A model generated the notes under the pieces. It saw only the letters and a program-made list of their open reading frames with translations, did no database searches and was not told the origin of the DNA. This document shows, in pieces, positions 7,284-32,482 of a DNA stretch of 64,000 nucleotides. The DNA lies in assembly GCA_903901875.1 (NCBI GenBank), contig CAIUSO010000071.1, forward strand, positions 1 to 64,000, written 5' to 3'. Position 1 is the stretch's first letter; each line of letters opens with the position of its first letter. The position numbers were made by a program, and so were the translations under genes. Origin of the DNA: an uncultured Geobacteraceae bacterium. Its GTDB lineage: Bacteria; Desulfobacterota; Desulfuromonadia; Geobacterales; Pseudopelobacteraceae.

Positions 7284-9011
7284 TCAGCGTAATTGTTTCA
7301 GGGCCGCCACCAGGCGATCTATCTCTTCAAAAGTGTTATAAAAGGAATAAGAGGGGCGCACCGTTGCCTCCAGACCAAAGCGGCGCAGTGACGGCTGGGC
7401 ACAATGGTGGCCGGCCCGCACCGCAATGCCTTGCTGGTCCAGATATTTTCCGATTTCGGGAACCGGTTTATCCTTGAGAACAAAAGATGTTACCGCTACC
7501 TTCTCCCGGGCATTGCCGATGATAGTCAAGCCGTTGACCGATCGGAGATGTTCCGTTGCGTATTCCAGCAGGCGGTGTTCATAGGCGGCGATAGCGGGAA
7601 GTCCGATGCGGGTGACATAATCCAGGGCAATTCCCAAACCATAGGCATCGGCCACATTGGGTGTTCCGGCCTCAAATCTGGCCGGTACATCGCTGTACAG
7701 TGTCTGCTCAAAGGTGACATCCTTGATCATGTTGCCACCTCCCTGCCAGGGGGGGAGCTCTTCGAGCAGTTCCCGTCGTCCGTAGACGGCACCGATGCCG
7801 GTGGGCCCAAATATTTTATGACCGGAAAAGACGAAGAAGTCGATGCCCAGTGCCTGCACATCCACCGGCAGATGGGCCACCGACTGGGCACCATCTATCA
7901 GTACGTGGGCCCCGGCACGTTTTGCCAGCACCGTCATTTCGGCGATCGGCAGCACCGTGCCAAGACTGTTGTTGGCATGGGCAAGGCCAACCAGTCGCGT
8001 GCGTGGATTTAATAGTCGCTGATATTCGGCCAGATTGATTTCGCCGCTGTCGGTAACGGGAATTACTCGAATGATCGCGCCCCGTTCCTTGGCGACGATC
8101 TGCCACGGGACGATATTTGCGTGGTGTTCCAGTTCTGACAGGAGGATTTCGTCCCCCGGTTGGAGAAAACGTTTACCGTAGGCGTTGGCAACCAGGTTGA
8201 CCCCCTCGGTGGTACCCCGGACAAAAATAATCTCTTCACTGGAACCGGCATGGAGATAGTCGCGGATTTTGTCCCGTGCGCCTTCAAAGGCATCGGTGGA
8301 GCGGGCAGCCAGGGTATGGGCGGCCCGGTGGATATTCGAATTGTCATGGGCATAAAAATAACTCAACCCATCAATGACCTGGCGCGGCTTCTGGGTGGTG
8401 GCGGCGTTATCAAACCAGACCAGCTGCTTGCCATGGACCTGCTGATGAAGAATGGGGAAGTCGGCACGGATCGCAGCCACATTAAAGGCCGGATTGCCTC
8501 CCCGGATACCCCCTTTGGGGAGGGTGGCCTGCAGCAGACGTGCAAAGGGATCGGCGTACTTTCCCTCCCCATCGGTACTGCCGGACAGGTCGTGACGGCA
8601 GGACTGAATGTTTTTGACGAAGCCCTTTAAGTCTCCGTGGCTGGCGTTCTGATCTTTATAGGTTTGCTGCCGCACCAGATGGTCAGCCTGCTGGCCCAGG
8701 GTGGGAGCCGGTTGCAGGTTGGCCGATTGCAGCAACTCATGGGCAAAGGGAACTGCGGTATGCGTTGACGGCGAATTGTCCTTAATCGTCTGAAAAATCT
8801 GTGAGATACGATCAAGGGGATCGCCACCGGCCGGTATGATGCCGACAGCACCGGTCGGAAGGGCAGTGGTGTCTTTTTGCGCCCGGTCTATCAGAGATGC
8901 TGCAATGCAGCGCGAGTCCGAAGCGTCCCCGGTGAACGATTGCTCACCGGGGCGTTCGTTGTAGAGTCGTGAGGCAACCTGGGCAACCAAGTCAGGAGTA
9001 ATATCTGGCAT
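7284..9011 (-). CDS. SufS-type cysteine desulfurase with ~180-aa N-terminal extension (candidate encapsulin cargo)
   Basis: Catalytic part from ~residue 180 (AIRADFPILHQQVHGKQLVWFDNAATTQKPRQVIDGL; FVFSGHKIFGPTGIGAVYG; IAVRAGHHCAQP), preceded by a Pro/Gly/Asp-rich extension. Confidence 0.93.
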   Translation of the reverse strand: MPDITPDLVAQVASRLYNERPGEQSFTGDASDSRCIAASLIDRAQKDTTALPTGAVGIIPAGGDPLDRISQIFQTIKDNSPSTHTAVPFAHELLQSANLQPAPTLGQQADHLVRQQTYKDQNASHGDLKGFVKNIQSCRHDLSGSTDGEGKYADPFARLLQATLPKGGIRGGNPAFNVAAIRADFPILHQQVHGKQLVWFDNAATTQKPRQVIDGLSYFYAHDNSNIHRAAHTLAARSTDAFEGARDKIRDYLHAGSSEEIIFVRGTTEGVNLVANAYGKRFLQPGDEILLSELEHHANIVPWQIVAKERGAIIRVIPVTDSGEINLAEYQRLLNPRTRLVGLAHANNSLGTVLPIAEMTVLAKRAGAHVLIDGAQSVAHLPVDVQALGIDFFVFSGHKIFGPTGIGAVYGRRELLEELPPWQGGGNMIKDVTFEQTLYSDVPARFEAGTPNVADAYGLGIALDYVTRIGLPAIAAYEHRLLEYATEHLRSVNGLTIIGNAREKVAVTSFVLKDKPVPEIGKYLDQQGIAVRAGHHCAQPSLRRFGLEATVRPSYSFYNTFEEIDRLVAALKQLR

Positions 9012-9092
9012 ATGAAATCCTTTTAAAGTCTTGTCAGAATGCTAACCAACCGGCATAACGAGGTGGTTTCTAAATTCGGTAGTGGCGGCATA

Positions 9093-9223
9093 TAGTTGAC
9101 ATAGCTGTCATCCTGAGCGACAGCGAAGGATCTGCTGTGGTTTTCGATGGTGCAAGAGCAAAAAAACAGATTCTTCGCTTCACTCAGAATGACAAACTGG
9201 CTGCTGGAACTTGGTGTCAACTA
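9093..9223. repeat. MITE/REP-like inverted-repeat element
   Basis: TAGTTGACA (9093-9101)/TGTCAACTA (9215-9223) enclosing GTCATCCTGAGCGACAGCGAAGGATCT / AGATTCTTCGCTTCACTCAGAATGAC. Confidence 0.75.
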
Positions 9224-9238
9224 AATGGTGACATCACG

Positions 9239-10696
9239 CTAAATCCCCGCTCCGGAGTTATAGGCAACCGGTACGCTATGCTCGTAATGGTGATAGTAGC
9301 CCACCTCGACATTTTCCAGGACGCCGATGGCGTCGTCGGTCAGTACGGCTGCGGAGAAGTAGAGCGACAGCAGGTATGAGGCCACACCCAGGTTGTCCAG
9401 TCCCATCAGCCGGGCCGACAGGCTCGGGGAAATTTCCCCCGGAATTCCCTGCTGATGGAGTCCTACTACCCCCTGGTCTTCTTCGCCGACCCGGATCAAC
9501 AGGATATTGGTGGTGCCGAGCCATTGATTGTGGGCATAGCGGCTCTTCACTTCGAGCTTGTCGGACGGGATCAGCGGAATACCGCGCCAGAGTATTACCG
9601 GCGTGCCAAACACCGTCGTCGTATTCGGTGGAACGCCGCGCCAGGTGCATTCCCGCTCAAATGCGGCAATGGCTTTCGGGTGTGCCAGGAAGAAGGCCGG
9701 TTTTTTCCAGACCAGTGCCAGCAGTTCATCAAGGTCATCGGGGGTCGGAGCACCATAGCGTGCGCTGATCCGGTGGGAAGGATGAACCGAGTGGAGCAGG
9801 CCGTAGTTCTTATTGTTGATCAGCTCCCATTCCTGTCGCTCCTTGATCCCTTCAATGGTCAGGCGGAGCTGTTCTTCCAGCTGGTTGTACGGATTATTGT
9901 AGAGATCGGAGACACGGGTATGGACACGTACCACCGTCTGCACGGCGCTGAGGGAATACTCGCGGGGGGTTGCCGAATAATCGACAAAGGTTTCCGGGAT
10001 AATGACGTTTTCCGCCAGACCGGAGACAAGATCGATATTTCGCTCGCCATATTTATTGACCGCCGCCAGCAGTTCCAGATGCTCCTCAACCGCCTTGGTA
10101 AATTCCTGTTTCAAGCCGGAATTCTTACTGAGCAGGGCATCCAGATCGGTACGGGACAGTGTCAGCAGTACGCATGGGTTAATGGTGCGAATGGTGACAT
10201 CCGATGGTTTGTCCGACACCAGGTCAGCCTCACCGAAATATTCCCCCTCACTCAACAGGGCAATACGGAGATCGCTGCCATGGACCCCTTTGCTCAGTAC
10301 TTCCACCTGTCCCTGGGCAATCACAAAGAACTTGTTACGGTCCTTTCCTTCGGTTACCAGGGTGTTACCCAGAGTGACATTTTCGGTTTTAAAGCTTGCC
10401 GCAATCTTGCCGATGATGCCGTCGGAAAGTTTAGCAAAGAGCGGTACACTTCGAAGAGCCTGGGGCGCAAAGGTTGCCACGCTGTCGGTCAGAGTAAACT
10501 CGACCCGCTCTGCGGTGGGAAGCTCAACTCTGGTACGGTTTACCCGGTAGGTACCCCCCTCAACGTGAACCCAGGGGAGCAGGTTGAGCAGGTGGCGCGG
10601 GGTTATTGAAGCGAGTTGGGGTGCTGTTTTAGTGGTGCTGGCAAGGTTCCTGGCCACCGATGTGGTAACGCTGCGTTGAATGAGATTGTCTGCCAT
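9239..10696 (-). CDS. Family 2B-type encapsulin shell protein (HK97 fold with inserted cNMP-binding domain)
   Basis: ARNLASTTKTAPQLASITPRHLLNLLPWVHVEGGTYRVNR, cNMP-like domain ~residues 85-205 (LFAKLSDGIIGKIA...GEYFGEADLVSDKPSDVTIRT), capsid part through VEVGYYHHYEHSVPVAYNSGAGI. Confidence 0.88.
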   Translation of the reverse strand: MADNLIQRSVTTSVARNLASTTKTAPQLASITPRHLLNLLPWVHVEGGTYRVNRTRVELPTAERVEFTLTDSVATFAPQALRSVPLFAKLSDGIIGKIAASFKTENVTLGNTLVTEGKDRNKFFVIAQGQVEVLSKGVHGSDLRIALLSEGEYFGEADLVSDKPSDVTIRTINPCVLLTLSRTDLDALLSKNSGLKQEFTKAVEEHLELLAAVNKYGERNIDLVSGLAENVIIPETFVDYSATPREYSLSAVQTVVRVHTRVSDLYNNPYNQLEEQLRLTIEGIKERQEWELINNKNYGLLHSVHPSHRISARYGAPTPDDLDELLALVWKKPAFFLAHPKAIAAFERECTWRGVPPNTTTVFGTPVILWRGIPLIPSDKLEVKSRYAHNQWLGTTNILLIRVGEEDQGVVGLHQQGIPGEISPSLSARLMGLDNLGVASYLLSLYFSAAVLTDDAIGVLENVEVGYYHHYEHSVPVAYNSGAGI

Positions 10697-10719: not shown

Positions 10720-10947
10720 TTACGGCTTTTTGATGGTAATTTTATGGATGTTATCGCGGACGTGAACCGATTCCAGTACCTGGTATCCCTGTTCCGTGGC
10801 GGTGCGTGGTACGTTGTCCAGCGGCTCACCGGCAGCCAGAAGTATCTCGGTGATGTCTCCCGGTTCCAGTTGTTCAAGGTGAAGTTTCGCCTTCACGAAT
10901 GTCATGGGACAACGCTCTTTGGTGATGTCGAGATTGAATGTGCTCAT
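10720..10947 (-). CDS. TusA-like sulfurtransferase family protein
   Basis: MSTFNLDITKERCPMTFVKAKLHLEQL. Confidence 0.85.
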   Translation of the reverse strand: MSTFNLDITKERCPMTFVKAKLHLEQLEPGDITEILLAAGEPLDNVPRTATEQGYQVLESVHVRDNIHKITIKKP

Positions 10948-11423
10948 ATGAACAGTGTCTGACCTCCTTTTGAAAGTTCCAGGAAGGAAGCGACGCCAAG
11001 GACATCTTTCACTTCCGGTATAAAATCATCTTTGGTTAATCCCAACACATGCATGGCCATTTCACAGGCAAAAAAGTTGACCCGCAGTGCCTTAGAAGCA
11101 TCAAACAGCTCCTCCAGGGTTGCCACATTTTTTCCCTTCATCATGCCGGTCATCAGGATCGGGCTTAAACCACCAAAATTAAGTCGACTGAGTGGCAGGC
11201 TCTTTCGTCCGCCGAGCAGGAAGTTGAAAAACCGGGCCAGAAAACCGCTGCCGATAAAACGGTGACTGGTGACCTTCTTGATGCTGTTCAGCCCCCAGAA
11301 GGTAAAGAAAATGTTCACTTCATATCCCACTGCTGCCGCACCGGATGCCAGGGTGAATACTGCGATTACTTTATCAAAATCCCCACTCATGCTTATGATG
11401 GATAGTTTATTTTTCTCTGCCAT
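10944..11423 (-). CDS. DsrE/DsrF-like family protein
   Basis: VIAVFTLASGAAAVGYEVNIFFTFWGLNSIKK ... KALRVNFFACEMAMHVLGL, overlaps the tusA start by 4 nt. Confidence 0.85.
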   Translation of the reverse strand: MAEKNKLSIISMSGDFDKVIAVFTLASGAAAVGYEVNIFFTFWGLNSIKKVTSHRFIGSGFLARFFNFLLGGRKSLPLSRLNFGGLSPILMTGMMKGKNVATLEELFDASKALRVNFFACEMAMHVLGLTKDDFIPEVKDVLGVASFLELSKGGQTLFI

Positions 11424-11452
11424 TGGTGCCTCCTTGCCGTGCTATACGGATA

Positions 11453-11579
11453 AAAAAAGAGGTCAAGGATAGAGAGCAGACTCGCTCTTTCCTTGACCTC
11501 CAGTTTTCTGGTCAGTCTCAGTTTGTGTGAGGGGGTGATACGGGAGCAAGTGCTCCCAGTGGTACGTTTTACTGGGGTG
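11453..11579 (-). promoter_or_regulatory. Structured 5' leader ending in an intrinsic terminator-like hairpin upstream of dsrE-tusA-encapsulin
   Basis: Minus strand: CCCAGT..ACTGGG, GGGAGC-ACTT-GCTCCC, GACCAGAAAACTGG, then AGGTCAAGGA..TCCTTGACCT + T7. Confidence 0.7.
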
Positions 11580-11637
11580 AAAATAACAAACGGAGCATGC
11601 CCTGTCAATAAAAAATTGTTTATCTATATTTTTTATA
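11580..11637 (-). promoter_or_regulatory. Predicted promoter plus upstream motif for the dsrE-tusA-encapsulin operon
   Basis: Minus strand: TATAAAAAATATAGATA, 12 nt, TTGACA (11603-11608), 17 nt, TATTTT (11580-11585). Confidence 0.65.
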
Positions 11638-12186
11638 TTATTTAGTTGTGCCTTTCTGGTATATGGCACTTATGGCATGGGTCCGATAATAATGACTGAT
11701 ACGCTGGAGTCCATGGGGATTCAGGAGTAAATCCAACTCGTGGTGGGTCAGCGTTTTTGAACATTCATCGCAGGAGAAAAAGTCTCTGCAGGTTGGGTCG
11801 CATCGTTCGCTCAGCTGGCGGCAGCGGACCTCCATCAATAAATAGCCGCCCGGTTTCAGATTGCGTACCACATTGTCAAGATATGCGCGGCGGTCATTGC
11901 TTTCCATAATGATATTGAATACATAGGTGGAGAGCACCAGATCGACATTGAGTTGTGAGGTGGGAAGCTCGTCGGTCGCCATCAGGCGCTCCACAACGGG
12001 GCCACCGGTCCTGCTCTTCAAGCGTGCTACCTGCTCCGGAAGGTCTGCGGCGTAGACCATGAAGCCATGTTTTTCCAGATAGAGCGCATTGCGCATGGTG
12101 CCGGTTCCGTAATCAAGCACCGTTGTTGCCGAGTTCTTTTTAAAAAATGAACGGTATCTTTTAACGCTTTCAGCGACTGTGGCCAT
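11638..12186 (-). CDS. Class I SAM-dependent methyltransferase
   Basis: ATTVLDYGTGTMRNALYLEKHGFMVYAADLPEQ, VDLVLSTYVFNII. Confidence 0.8.
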   Translation of the reverse strand: MATVAESVKRYRSFFKKNSATTVLDYGTGTMRNALYLEKHGFMVYAADLPEQVARLKSRTGGPVVERLMATDELPTSQLNVDLVLSTYVFNIIMESNDRRAYLDNVVRNLKPGGYLLMEVRCRQLSERCDPTCRDFFSCDECSKTLTHHELDLLLNPHGLQRISHYYRTHAISAIYQKGTTK

Positions 12187-12228
12187 GGGGGATTCTCCTG
12201 ATAACTGTATCTGTCTGTTCTTGCGGTG

Positions 12229-13095
12229 TTAAATTGCCGCTCCATCCGAAACCAGTCCATTCTCAAGTACGTTGATCCTCTCCGCCCAATCAAGACGCCA
12301 CTCGCTTAACCGCTCCGTGGATAAGGGGAAAGGCTGATTTCGGGATGAAGGCACCTCGGTGGCGTCTACAATCTGGTTAGCCAGTCTCCGGTAATAGTAT
12401 GACTGGTTCGATTTTGGCCGGGCCTCGATTACGGTTGTGCCATACAGTTCAGATTGCCGTACCGTTGCAGAACGGGGAATCTTGCCGATGGGCCTGACAT
12501 TGGTATGGTAGGCAAAGTCATTGGCAAATGCCTCTTCAAAGGAACTGGAAATGTTATTCAAAATCAGTCCACCCAGGGGAAGTGACCTGCCATATTCCCT
12601 GTCATATCCTCCCAGGAACCGGAATATGTCGTTTGCCTTCTGTAATGCTTTCAGGTCGGCAGAGGTAATGACAAAAAGCAGCTCCAATCCTACTTCATCG
12701 ACGATGGCTTTCAGTGTGCCGTTCGAACCGTCACCCGGTACATCAAACAATATAAAATCCGGTTTCCACTCAGAAAAAGCCCCCTCAGCGTGCAGTCTCT
12801 TCAAATTCGAAACTGCTCCTGAAGTTGTGTCAACTCCATGGAGTTCTACGCATCCCGCACCTTTGAAACCTGAAATAACGGTTTTTTTCAGGATAGAAGC
12901 AGGGAGAGTGCTCACTTCATGTGACACTGCCGACGGCACGGAAGGATCCAGTAATTGAGAGCAAGAGTCTGCGTCCGGGGAGCAGCCCACCATGAGCACA
13001 CGAAACCCTGCCTCAGTGAGTGCTGCCGTTATATTGGAGACCACTGTTGTTGTGCCAACTCCGTTTTTGCCAAGAAATGCGATATGGTGTGCCAT
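12229..13095 (-). CDS. Divergent NifH/ParA-like P-loop protein
   Basis: MAHHIAFLGKNGVGTTTVVSNITAALTEAGFRVLMVGCSPDADSCSQLL aligns with the NifH N-terminus; PDFILFDVPGDGSNG matches NifH YDVLGDVVCGG. Confidence 0.75.
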   Translation of the reverse strand: MAHHIAFLGKNGVGTTTVVSNITAALTEAGFRVLMVGCSPDADSCSQLLDPSVPSAVSHEVSTLPASILKKTVISGFKGAGCVELHGVDTTSGAVSNLKRLHAEGAFSEWKPDFILFDVPGDGSNGTLKAIVDEVGLELLFVITSADLKALQKANDIFRFLGGYDREYGRSLPLGGLILNNISSSFEEAFANDFAYHTNVRPIGKIPRSATVRQSELYGTTVIEARPKSNQSYYYRRLANQIVDATEVPSSRNQPFPLSTERLSEWRLDWAERINVLENGLVSDGAAI

Positions 13096-13117
13096 GACTT
13101 TCTCTTCTCTCTGAATT

Positions 13118-13196
13118 AGTGCTGAAAAAATCAAGGCCGGAAAAGAACATCGTTATGATGTCTTAACCGGCCTCCAGTTTTTCTGGTCAGCGGGGT
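13118..13196 (-). promoter_or_regulatory. Leader hairpin plus terminator-like stem upstream of the NifH-like gene
   Basis: Minus strand: CTGACCAGAAAAACTGGAGGCCGG...CCGGCCTTGATTTTTT. Confidence 0.65.
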
Positions 13197-13212: not shown

Positions 13213-13395
13213 CTAGATGCCACTCCCGTCTATATGACTGGAACGATTAATGCGTATTTTTTCGTTTTTCTCTATCTGAATTACCCTTCCATCCTGCACG
13301 ACCAGGCTAACCGTACCAAAGCGGATGGTTTCGAGCGCGTCACGAATCAGCAGCTCAAGCTCTTTATTCCAATATTCCGTCGCGTTACTACTCAT
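13213..13395 (-). CDS. YezD-like (DUF2292) small protein
   Basis: 60 aa: ALETIRFGTVSLVVQDGRVIQIEKNEKIRI. Confidence 0.75.
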   Translation of the reverse strand: MSSNATEYWNKELELLIRDALETIRFGTVSLVVQDGRVIQIEKNEKIRINRSSHIDGSGI

Positions 13396-13460: not shown

Positions 13461-13548
13461 GCATTTTTTGCAGGGTACAGGAGCCTATCGGACGGATGCC
13501 AGGCCTTCATTGTGGCTCAAACTGATGCACTCGACAAAAAGCAGACAA

Positions 13549-13660
13549 GTCCCCTCCCCAGGAGGGGGAGGGGTAGGGAGGGGACGTTTTCTGATGTTAT
13601 CTCAATAAGATGCAAAAAATCCCCCCTCCTGACCTCCCCCCGCTTGGGGGAGGAAATTAC
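13549..13660. repeat. G/C-tract palindromic intergenic repeats
   Basis: GTCCCCTCCC..GGGAGGGGAC, and a second CCCCCC-type palindrome nearby. Confidence 0.6.
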
Positions 13661-30300: not shown

Positions 30301-30359
30301 CAATCACAATGATCGGGCTTCGGCCCCTCGTTCCACGGAGGTCCCAAAACAGTCACAGA

Positions 30360-30515
30360 AATGGCAGGTTTCCTGGCTCCAGGGTCATCTTACTTGCCGC
30401 GCCTTCCCAGGGTTGCCCCAGTGGCATAATGCAGCGTTCATCGCCTGTTACAGTTGCGGGACAGCGAAGGATTTGCACCTTCTTCCCTTTTAACTATGCT
30501 TTCATGGCATAGCAC
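30360..30515 (-). ncRNA. Cobalamin riboswitch
   Basis: Minus strand GGGAAGAAGGTGCAAATCCTTCGCTGTCCCGCAACTGTAA...GCCACTGGGGCAACCCTGGGAAGGCGC...GAGCCAGGAAACCTGCC. Confidence 0.93.
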
Positions 30516-30725
30516 CAGATCTGGTTGTGAAACAGTTGTAGAGTAATATGTAGCAAACTACTGACGTGAAAGTCAAAAGAAATGAGACAGAGAAACGAGA
30601 AGGGTATCACTTCATAACCCTTGGGTACTATCCTACGTAACGGTCAGTTCGTCCTGATTTTCAAGTCAGTAAGCCCATTCAGAGAGTCTCCTTATCGTGC
30701 AGATGCTGCGCTTTACTCTTCATCT

Positions 30726-32401: not shown

Positions 32402-32482
32402 CCTTGGCAACCCGACTATCCGCACTCGATGGACTCGTGGTTTTGCGTCCCCAGGTTACCCCGAGTTTGCCCTTTGCAAAGA
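32402..32482 (-). ncRNA. GEMM-I (c-di-GMP-I type) riboswitch upstream of the MCP
   Basis: Minus strand GCAAAGGGCAAACTCGGGGTAACCTGGGGACGCAAAACCACGAGTC...GATAGTCGGGTTGCC. Confidence 0.85.

Follow-up and report, generated by a model that had tools for sequence, protein, structure and literature searches.

The 64,000-nucleotide (nt) window analysed here (positions 1 to 64,000 of contig CAIUSO010000071.1 from an uncultured Geobacteraceae bacterium) carries on its minus strand two copies of a short hairpin element, located in the leaders of a dsrE2-like gene and a NifH-like gene (Table 1). The copies share the pattern CTGACCAG-A(4 or 5)-CTGGAGG (11497-11515 and 13171-13190), and both read straight into an intrinsic terminator. 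The original prediction, made from the sequence alone, had described two leaders with a common hairpin fused to a terminator-like stem; both sequences are present, far beyond chance (0.06 occurrences expected in shuffled sequences at up to three mismatches). In the covariance model of hairpin and terminator (R1), element 1 with its terminator scores 61.5 bits over 11451-11517, and element 2 with its terminator scores 57.8 bits over 13125-13192. An element-only model (R2) was built partly from gammaproteobacterial sequences. Folded alone in ViennaRNA, element 1 adopts the structure ((((..((((....)))).)))), with the pairs G-C, A-U, C-G, and U-G, a GA/A internal loop, a CCAG/CUGG stem, and an AAAA loop. 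Element 2 is situated between the NifH-like gene and a gene encoding a DUF2292/YezD/OscA-like protein, whose stop codon lies approximately 20 nt upstream of the element. Below, this protein family is proposed as the reader of the hairpin.

Table 1. Features of the window discussed in the text, with positions counted from its first nucleotide.
Feature	Position	Strand	Evidence
Element 1, putative antiterminator hairpin GACUGACCAGAAAACUGGAGGUC	11495..11517	-	R2 E=1.4e-8; lone-element ViennaRNA fold; covariation
Intrinsic terminator 1, arms GAGGTCAAGGA / TCCTTGACCTC and 7 U; predicted to be mutually exclusive with element 1	11452..11500	-	
Element 2, putative antiterminator hairpin CGCUGACCAGAAAAACUGGAGGCC	13169..13192	-	R2 E=1.3e-7
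Intrinsic terminator 2, arms GAGGCCGG / CCGGCCTT, then GAUUUUUU	13125..13174	-	
DUF2292/YezD/OscA-like 60-aa protein, proposed trans-acting reader	13213..13395	-	Pfam DUF2292 2.2e-17
NifH-like gene, downstream of element 2	12229..13095	-	Pfam Fer4_NifH 1e-38
S-adenosylmethionine (SAM)-dependent methyltransferase, next after the NifH-like gene	11638..12186	-	Pfam Methyltransf_11 4e-11
dsrE2-like gene, first downstream of element 1	10944..11423	-	Pfam DrsE_2 3e-40
tusA	10720..10947	-	Pfam TusA 8e-18
Family 2 encapsulin shell with cNMP-binding domain	9239..10696	-	Pfam SrpI-like 6e-115; NCBIfam family 2B 1e-175
Cysteine desulfurase with long N-terminal extension	7284..9011	-	Pfam Aminotran_5, residues 198-567 of 575

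The consensus of the collected copies, R-C-U-[GA]-CCAG-loop-CUGG-[A]-G-G-Y, is longer than the hairpin first described and forms a single hairpin whose loop, with few exceptions, is 4-5 nt long. All 136 copies have a purine immediately before CTGAC, and this base covaries with the one following GGAGG (G-C in 104, A-U in 22, G-U in 5, and A.C in 5 copies); the p-value of this covariation is inflated by the relatedness of the copies, and both states are also found within Omnitrophota. The base after GGAGG additionally pairs with the 3' arm of the terminator, so that three columns move together. The hairpin is thus placed at the terminator 5' arm as predicted, and what had been taken for mere abutting is an overlap. 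In a cross-phylum alignment of 48 distinct copies, 94.5% of the cells are paired for ((((..((((.....)))).)))), two-sided changes occur in seven of eight pairs, none of 500 shuffles scores as high, and no slid register comes close; the pattern used to choose the gammaproteobacterial members required YYGA...ARG together with the inner stem, and the remaining members were chosen by a model that contains the inner stem and lacks the outer pairs. G5, A6, and the single A opposite, which make up the GA/A internal loop, are invariant across the 48 copies. Divergent copies have the outer pairs U-A and A-U and the inner stems CTAG/CTAG, CTGG/CCAG, GCAG/CTGC, and CCGG/CCGG. The covariation in homologous leaders that had been suggested as a check is therefore present both in the outer pairs and across phyla. 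In G000:C142:88430-88542 (locus L004) and in locus L051, tandem element-terminator units approximately 60 nt apart precede a sulfonate-type ABC transporter, and their inner stems differ (CCTG/CAGG, then CCAG/CTGG).

Of 83 copies collected from relatives, 79 run directly into a terminator, defined as a stem that begins at GAGG or GG, has six or more pairs, and is followed by a U-rich tail; three of the four copies failing this test are coding-region matches. Copies exist in which one hairpin is combined with different terminator sequences. As in intrinsic-terminator attenuators, the elements are located in leaders before start codons, the downstream starts being mostly 50-130 nt away; as in a terminator/antiterminator pair, the outer hairpin pairs covary and draw on GAGGY of the terminator arm. 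Since GAGGY, which lies in the 3' half of the hairpin and is the base of the terminator 5' arm, is common to the two structures, they are predicted to be mutually exclusive, and the comparison of copies supports the assignment of the hairpin as an antiterminator. Because the terminator is more stable than the hairpin in all 136 copies (means of -25.0 and -8.8 kcal/mol, respectively), termination would be the default and read-through would require something binding the hairpin, i.e., the direction of control would be antitermination.

Leader 1 also contains the hairpins CCCAGT/ACTGGG and GGGAGC/GCTCCC noted in the original prediction, and their proposed mutually exclusive pairing is not conserved. 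A second switch made of them was rejected, since orthologous dsrE leaders do not conserve CCCAGT/ACTGGG; in three of four such leaders, the GGGAGC position is occupied by a hairpin of differing sequence. At 11560-11640 of the window and in the dsrE leaders of loci L065, L067, L070, and L073, an AT-rich TATAGATATTA box is located upstream of a conserved promoter, TTGACA-17-TATTGTC. TATA-type palindromes are enriched upstream of the elements (20/128 vs 1/118 coding controls) and are possibly an Rrf2/CymR-type operator.

The exact pattern was found five times in the 4.3-Mb genome and not once in the reversed control, and the R1 search of the source genome revealed 11 copies. The pattern is matched in 26 of 58 relatives, against about four reversed-control matches in total, and at least one R1 copy is present in 84 of 141 genomes of the order, with a maximum of 17 per genome. 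Scanning of the named genome collection (99 stretches) revealed mainly Geobacter, Geomonas, Geotalea, Oryzomonas, Citrifermentans, and their relatives. Copies fused to a terminator were likewise detected in Treponema, Syntrophomonas, Clostridiales, Coriobacteria, Chloroflexota, Omnitrophota, Nitrospirota, Auribacterota, and Armatimonadota, and the range of the element extends over approximately ten phyla. Whole-genome searches confirmed copies in 19 genomes of other phyla, several of which contain three or four. Pattern matches in coding regions (L010, L019, L022, L091, and L131) were discarded; no DUF2292 was found in the genomes of L091 and L131.

A known riboswitch or other Rfam family was rejected as an identity of the element: Rfam 15 gave no family at the gathering cut-off for either window element or for copies in loci of several phyla, in agreement with the earlier failure to match the motif to a known riboswitch class. 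Elsewhere in the loci from other phyla, Rfam matched only S-box riboswitches and tRNAs. In the part of the open-access literature that was searched, nothing describing the motif was found. Judged by Rfam 15 and this literature, the element is a previously uncatalogued RNA hairpin.

The genes behind the element are overwhelmingly sulfur assimilation genes. Among 115 mostly Geobacterales copies, the first downstream genes encode NifH-like proteins (11), ABC ATPases (11), rhodaneses (11), MetK (8), NMT1-type binding proteins (6), radical SAM proteins (6), Cys/Met pyridoxal phosphate enzymes (5), DsrE2 (5), NifX-like proteins (5), cysK-type products (2), and cysE products (2). Among 17 mostly Bacillota copies, they are sat (4), cysK-type genes (2), binding proteins (2), cysH (1), an O-acetylhomoserine sulfhydrylase-type gene (1), and metK (1). 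Sulfonate transporters are also found behind the element. Methylthio-alkane reductase is a nitrogenase-like enzyme that frees sulfur from organosulfur compounds, and isethionate reductase is another (PMC11423573). The NifH-like and radical SAM targets would fit enzymes of this kind, as may the NifH-like gene of the window, which scores 153 bits against the NCBIfam nifH model, under the cutoff of 394. The content of the gene set suggests that the response is to sulfur itself. The idea that sulfur genes are controlled by a regulatory RNA not belonging to any known riboswitch class is thus supported by the covarying leaders, the lack of an Rfam match, and the gene set. The genes found repeatedly behind the element include that of DUF2325, a small uncharacterised family (G000:C142:111197-111564, L008, and L045), and in Armatimonadota-type genomes (L083 and L169) the element precedes genes for prepilin-type proteins, with no obvious sulfur gene.

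The protein encoded next to element 2 is a member of the DUF2292 family (PF10055; 62.8 bits, gathering score of 22 bits). Against OscA (NF033785), it scores 36.4 bits (E=3.8e-9), under the NCBIfam cut-off of 85, which makes it a homologue and not a certified orthologue. In the 141 genomes of the order (element at E<=1e-6), the element and DUF2292 occur together in 60, the element only in 11, DUF2292 only in 4, and neither in 66 (Fisher 2.7e-23); DUF2292 is present in 52 of the 55 genomes with at least two copies. The family was found in 17 of 19 element genomes of other phyla, compared with a baseline of 46/300 in the Clostridia-type phylum of the Lachnospiraceae genome G076 (p 2e-12). When loci of this phylum were picked by the DUF2292 protein alone, the element was detected in 19 of 29, and in 15 of these 19 it starts from -25 to +131 nt relative to the DUF2292 stop codon, the regulator-next-to-attenuator arrangement of the PyrR type. 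DUF2325 was rejected as a trans factor, since its occurrence does not track the element (p 0.04-0.16).

The AlphaFold model of DUF2292 shows one helix plus a beta hairpin, and its core is predicted with confidence. G27, Q40, and R48 are invariant in the family, and D35 and K46 are near-invariant. Some Bacillota have two DUF2292 domains per chain (L265, L267, and L268), and these natural tandem proteins suggest that the single-domain protein works as a dimer. No solved structure of the family was found, and the open-access literature searched gave no paper on function under the names DUF2292 or YezD. Inactivating oscA renders Pseudomonas corrugata sensitive to chromate, and a link to the sulfur-starvation response is described for the oscA-sbp unit (PMC2996968), which is consistent with a positive role.

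With a probability of roughly 0.6, we propose that DUF2292 (YezD/OscA) reads the antiterminator hairpin and switches sulfur-scavenging genes on when sulfur is limiting. During transcription of the leader, R-C-U-GA-CCAG-loop-CUGG-A-GG-Y would fold and hold the base of the terminator 5' arm (GAGGY). Unaided, the hairpin would be displaced by the stronger terminator, and transcription would end ahead of the gene. DUF2292, produced under sulfur limitation, would recognise the bulged hairpin via the invariant GA/A internal loop and stabilise it, allowing RNA polymerase to read through. The yezD gene often directly precedes an element, as pyrR does its attenuator, and its product would act in trans on the remaining copies. 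The sequence supports the hairpin and its exclusivity with the terminator, as well as the gene set and the association with DUF2292; the parts that we infer are the binding, the antiterminating direction of control, and the signal, sulfur starvation.

Several observations weigh against this proposal. DUF2292 has no recognisable RNA-binding fold, as no solved-structure relatives were found by sequence or by the fold of the single-domain and natural tandem-domain proteins, and the window protein is not basic overall (isoelectric point of 5.7). Several copies of the element are present in genomes in which DUF2292 was undetected, namely, G052 (six copies, 98% complete), G137 (seven copies, 88%), G150 (two copies), and Treponema G059 (four copies); a divergent DUF2292 hidden near their elements was sought and none was found. 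The gammaproteobacterial hairpins, considered below, lack a terminator. Furthermore, the association could reflect shared regulon membership rather than physical reading.

Some of these points would suit a riboswitch in which the GA/A-loop hairpin binds a sulfur metabolite directly and yezD is just another gene of the sulfur regulon. A cis element on a terminator, a coherent metabolic regulon, tandem copies before one transporter operon, and element genomes without detected DUF2292 all agree with this explanation. However, the element has only about 23 nt with three invariant nucleotides, which is smaller than the natural aptamers known to us, and its presence closely tracks one protein family across phyla. 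In addition, in some Bacillota, SAM already has a riboswitch of its own ahead of yezD. SAM-I (S-box) riboswitches control methionine and sulfur genes by termination, also in Geobacter (PMC545781), and are RNAs unrelated to the element. The Cytobacillus arrangement runs from the S-box riboswitch through yezD and the element to cysH-sat-cysC; SAM-I riboswitches before yezD with the element after it were located at L237:3760-3865, L241:1745-1850, and L244:1235-1351, giving two stacked attenuators per operon. A metabolite-binding hairpin is consequently doubtful, and the DUF2292/YezD protein is the more likely trans factor.

It is rather improbable that another conserved protein reads the antiterminator, with DUF2292 being merely a co-regulated sulfur-starvation protein. 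The four genomes retaining several elements and the missing RNA-binding fold speak for such a reader. Against it stands the adjacency of DUF2292 and the element in Bacillota, Chloroflexota, Nitrospirota, Auribacterota, Coriobacteria, and Gammaproteobacteria, six groups whose downstream genes differ; in genomes with only one copy, for example G038 and G041, it is found 30 nt behind DUF2292.

The same adjacency could mean translation coupling in cis, where the ribosome ending the DUF2292 frame decides between hairpin and terminator: the element often starts 0-30 nt from the stop of that frame, and CUGAC includes the UGA stop codon itself in L246. This is very unlikely, since most Geobacterales copies have no upstream DUF2292 frame (it is present for 2 of 11 in the source genome) and the element can precede DUF2292 in Omnitrophota. 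The frame encodes a conserved family poor in Cys and Met (0.88%) and not a Cys/Met leader peptide; a leader-peptide attenuator was rejected on this composition and on the missing upstream frames.

There is next to no likelihood of a DNA operator lying by chance beside a terminator: CCAG-N-CTGG is an inverted repeat whose inner stem varies as a palindrome would, but the flanks are asymmetric (GA vs A), G.U is frequent (38/48 at one pair), the orientation is fixed, the terminator fusion is exact, and the outer pairs covary. Ordinary recurring terminators or a repeat family without a regulatory role would explain why a good terminator ends nearly every Geobacterales copy, and are equally implausible given copies in 5' leaders before start codons, a constant hairpin joined to varied terminators, and sulfur genes in several phyla.

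DUF2292 is rare in Gammaproteobacteria (12/369). In windows downstream of gammaproteobacterial DUF2292 genes, the hairpin was found in 9 of 13, compared with 0.6% of shuffles, and R2, built with some of these sequences, detects it in 11 of 14 gammaproteobacterial loci at E<=3.1e-4. Since these copies have no terminator, they must act differently. In loci L271, L273, L274, L280, and L281, GGAGG is located 5-6 nt before ATG or GTG, like a Shine-Dalgarno sequence, which suggests a translational role of the hairpin. In L273, GTG opens a very short frame overlapping the next start. We consider the odds about even that all these copies belong to one cross-phylum, two-part sulfur-starvation system, comprising an antiterminator hairpin of 23 nt and a dedicated RNA-binding protein of 60 aa (DUF2292/YezD/OscA) with no known fold relative, and that this system controls sulfur scavenging through terminator read-through in most phyla and through another mechanism, possibly a translational one, in Gammaproteobacteria.

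Among known systems, the attenuators of the Bacillus pyr operon are controlled by PyrR, a phosphoribosyltransferase relative that represses by stabilising an anti-antiterminator. The element resembles them in the succession of regulator gene and attenuator in its own operon, in the further RNA sites, and in the small bulged stem, with reading by a protein being proposed here; it differs in that the conserved hairpin itself excludes the terminator and in the associated protein, for which Pfam gives DUF2292 only. In the BglG/LicT-RAT system, a short bulged hairpin overlaps the terminator 5' arm, and the bound CAT-RBD protein prevents termination. The likeness to it is one of architecture; the targets (sulfur rather than sugar), the single GA/A internal loop, and the associated DUF2292 are different, as the sequence appears to be. 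ANTAR proteins (EutV) act by protein-dependent antitermination over a regulon of terminator leaders, and their sites consist of two hairpins with hexanucleotide loops, unlike the one hairpin with a shorter loop described here. The metXZ RNA element of beta-proteobacteria, a proposed terminator-antiterminator of methionine genes (PMC4239095), is of the same kind, but has six conserved regions and a possible pseudoknot and is restricted to metX/metZ. As for OscA, a Pseudomonas sulfur-starvation protein encoded beside sulfate transport genes, the window protein is homologous to it, and the same hairpin stands behind the DUF2292 genes of Gammaproteobacteria; the differences are the score under the OscA cut-off and the lack of a terminator behind the gammaproteobacterial hairpin.

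In the window, the cysteine desulfurase gene has the same direction as dsrE2-tusA-encapsulin and is likely in their operon, its product being the probable encapsulin cargo. The region 7284-10696, in which the cNMP-domain family 2 encapsulin adjoins the desulfurase with its N-terminal extension of ~190 aa, thus probably encodes a sulfur-storing compartment and its cargo. Two riboswitches above the Rfam gathering score were found on the minus strand, cobalamin (30346-30534) and c-di-GMP-I-GGC (32402-32480). An intergenic G/C-rich inverted repeat at 13541-13660 (CCCCTCCCCAGGAGGGGGAGGGG... / ...CCCCTCCTGACCTCCCCCC) resembles a repeat element.

If the proposed reading by DUF2292 is true, it would give a function to a family of unknown function present in ~15% of the sampled Clostridia-type phylum. 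It would also provide a mechanism for OscA, the mutants of which have been linked to sulfur starvation and chromate resistance without explanation. A class of RNA absent from Rfam would bring sulfate, sulfonate, cysteine, methionine/SAM, encapsulin-linked sulfur, and nitrogenase-like genes together as a single predicted regulon, and in many genomes encoding DUF2292 the sulfur regulon would become readable directly from DNA.
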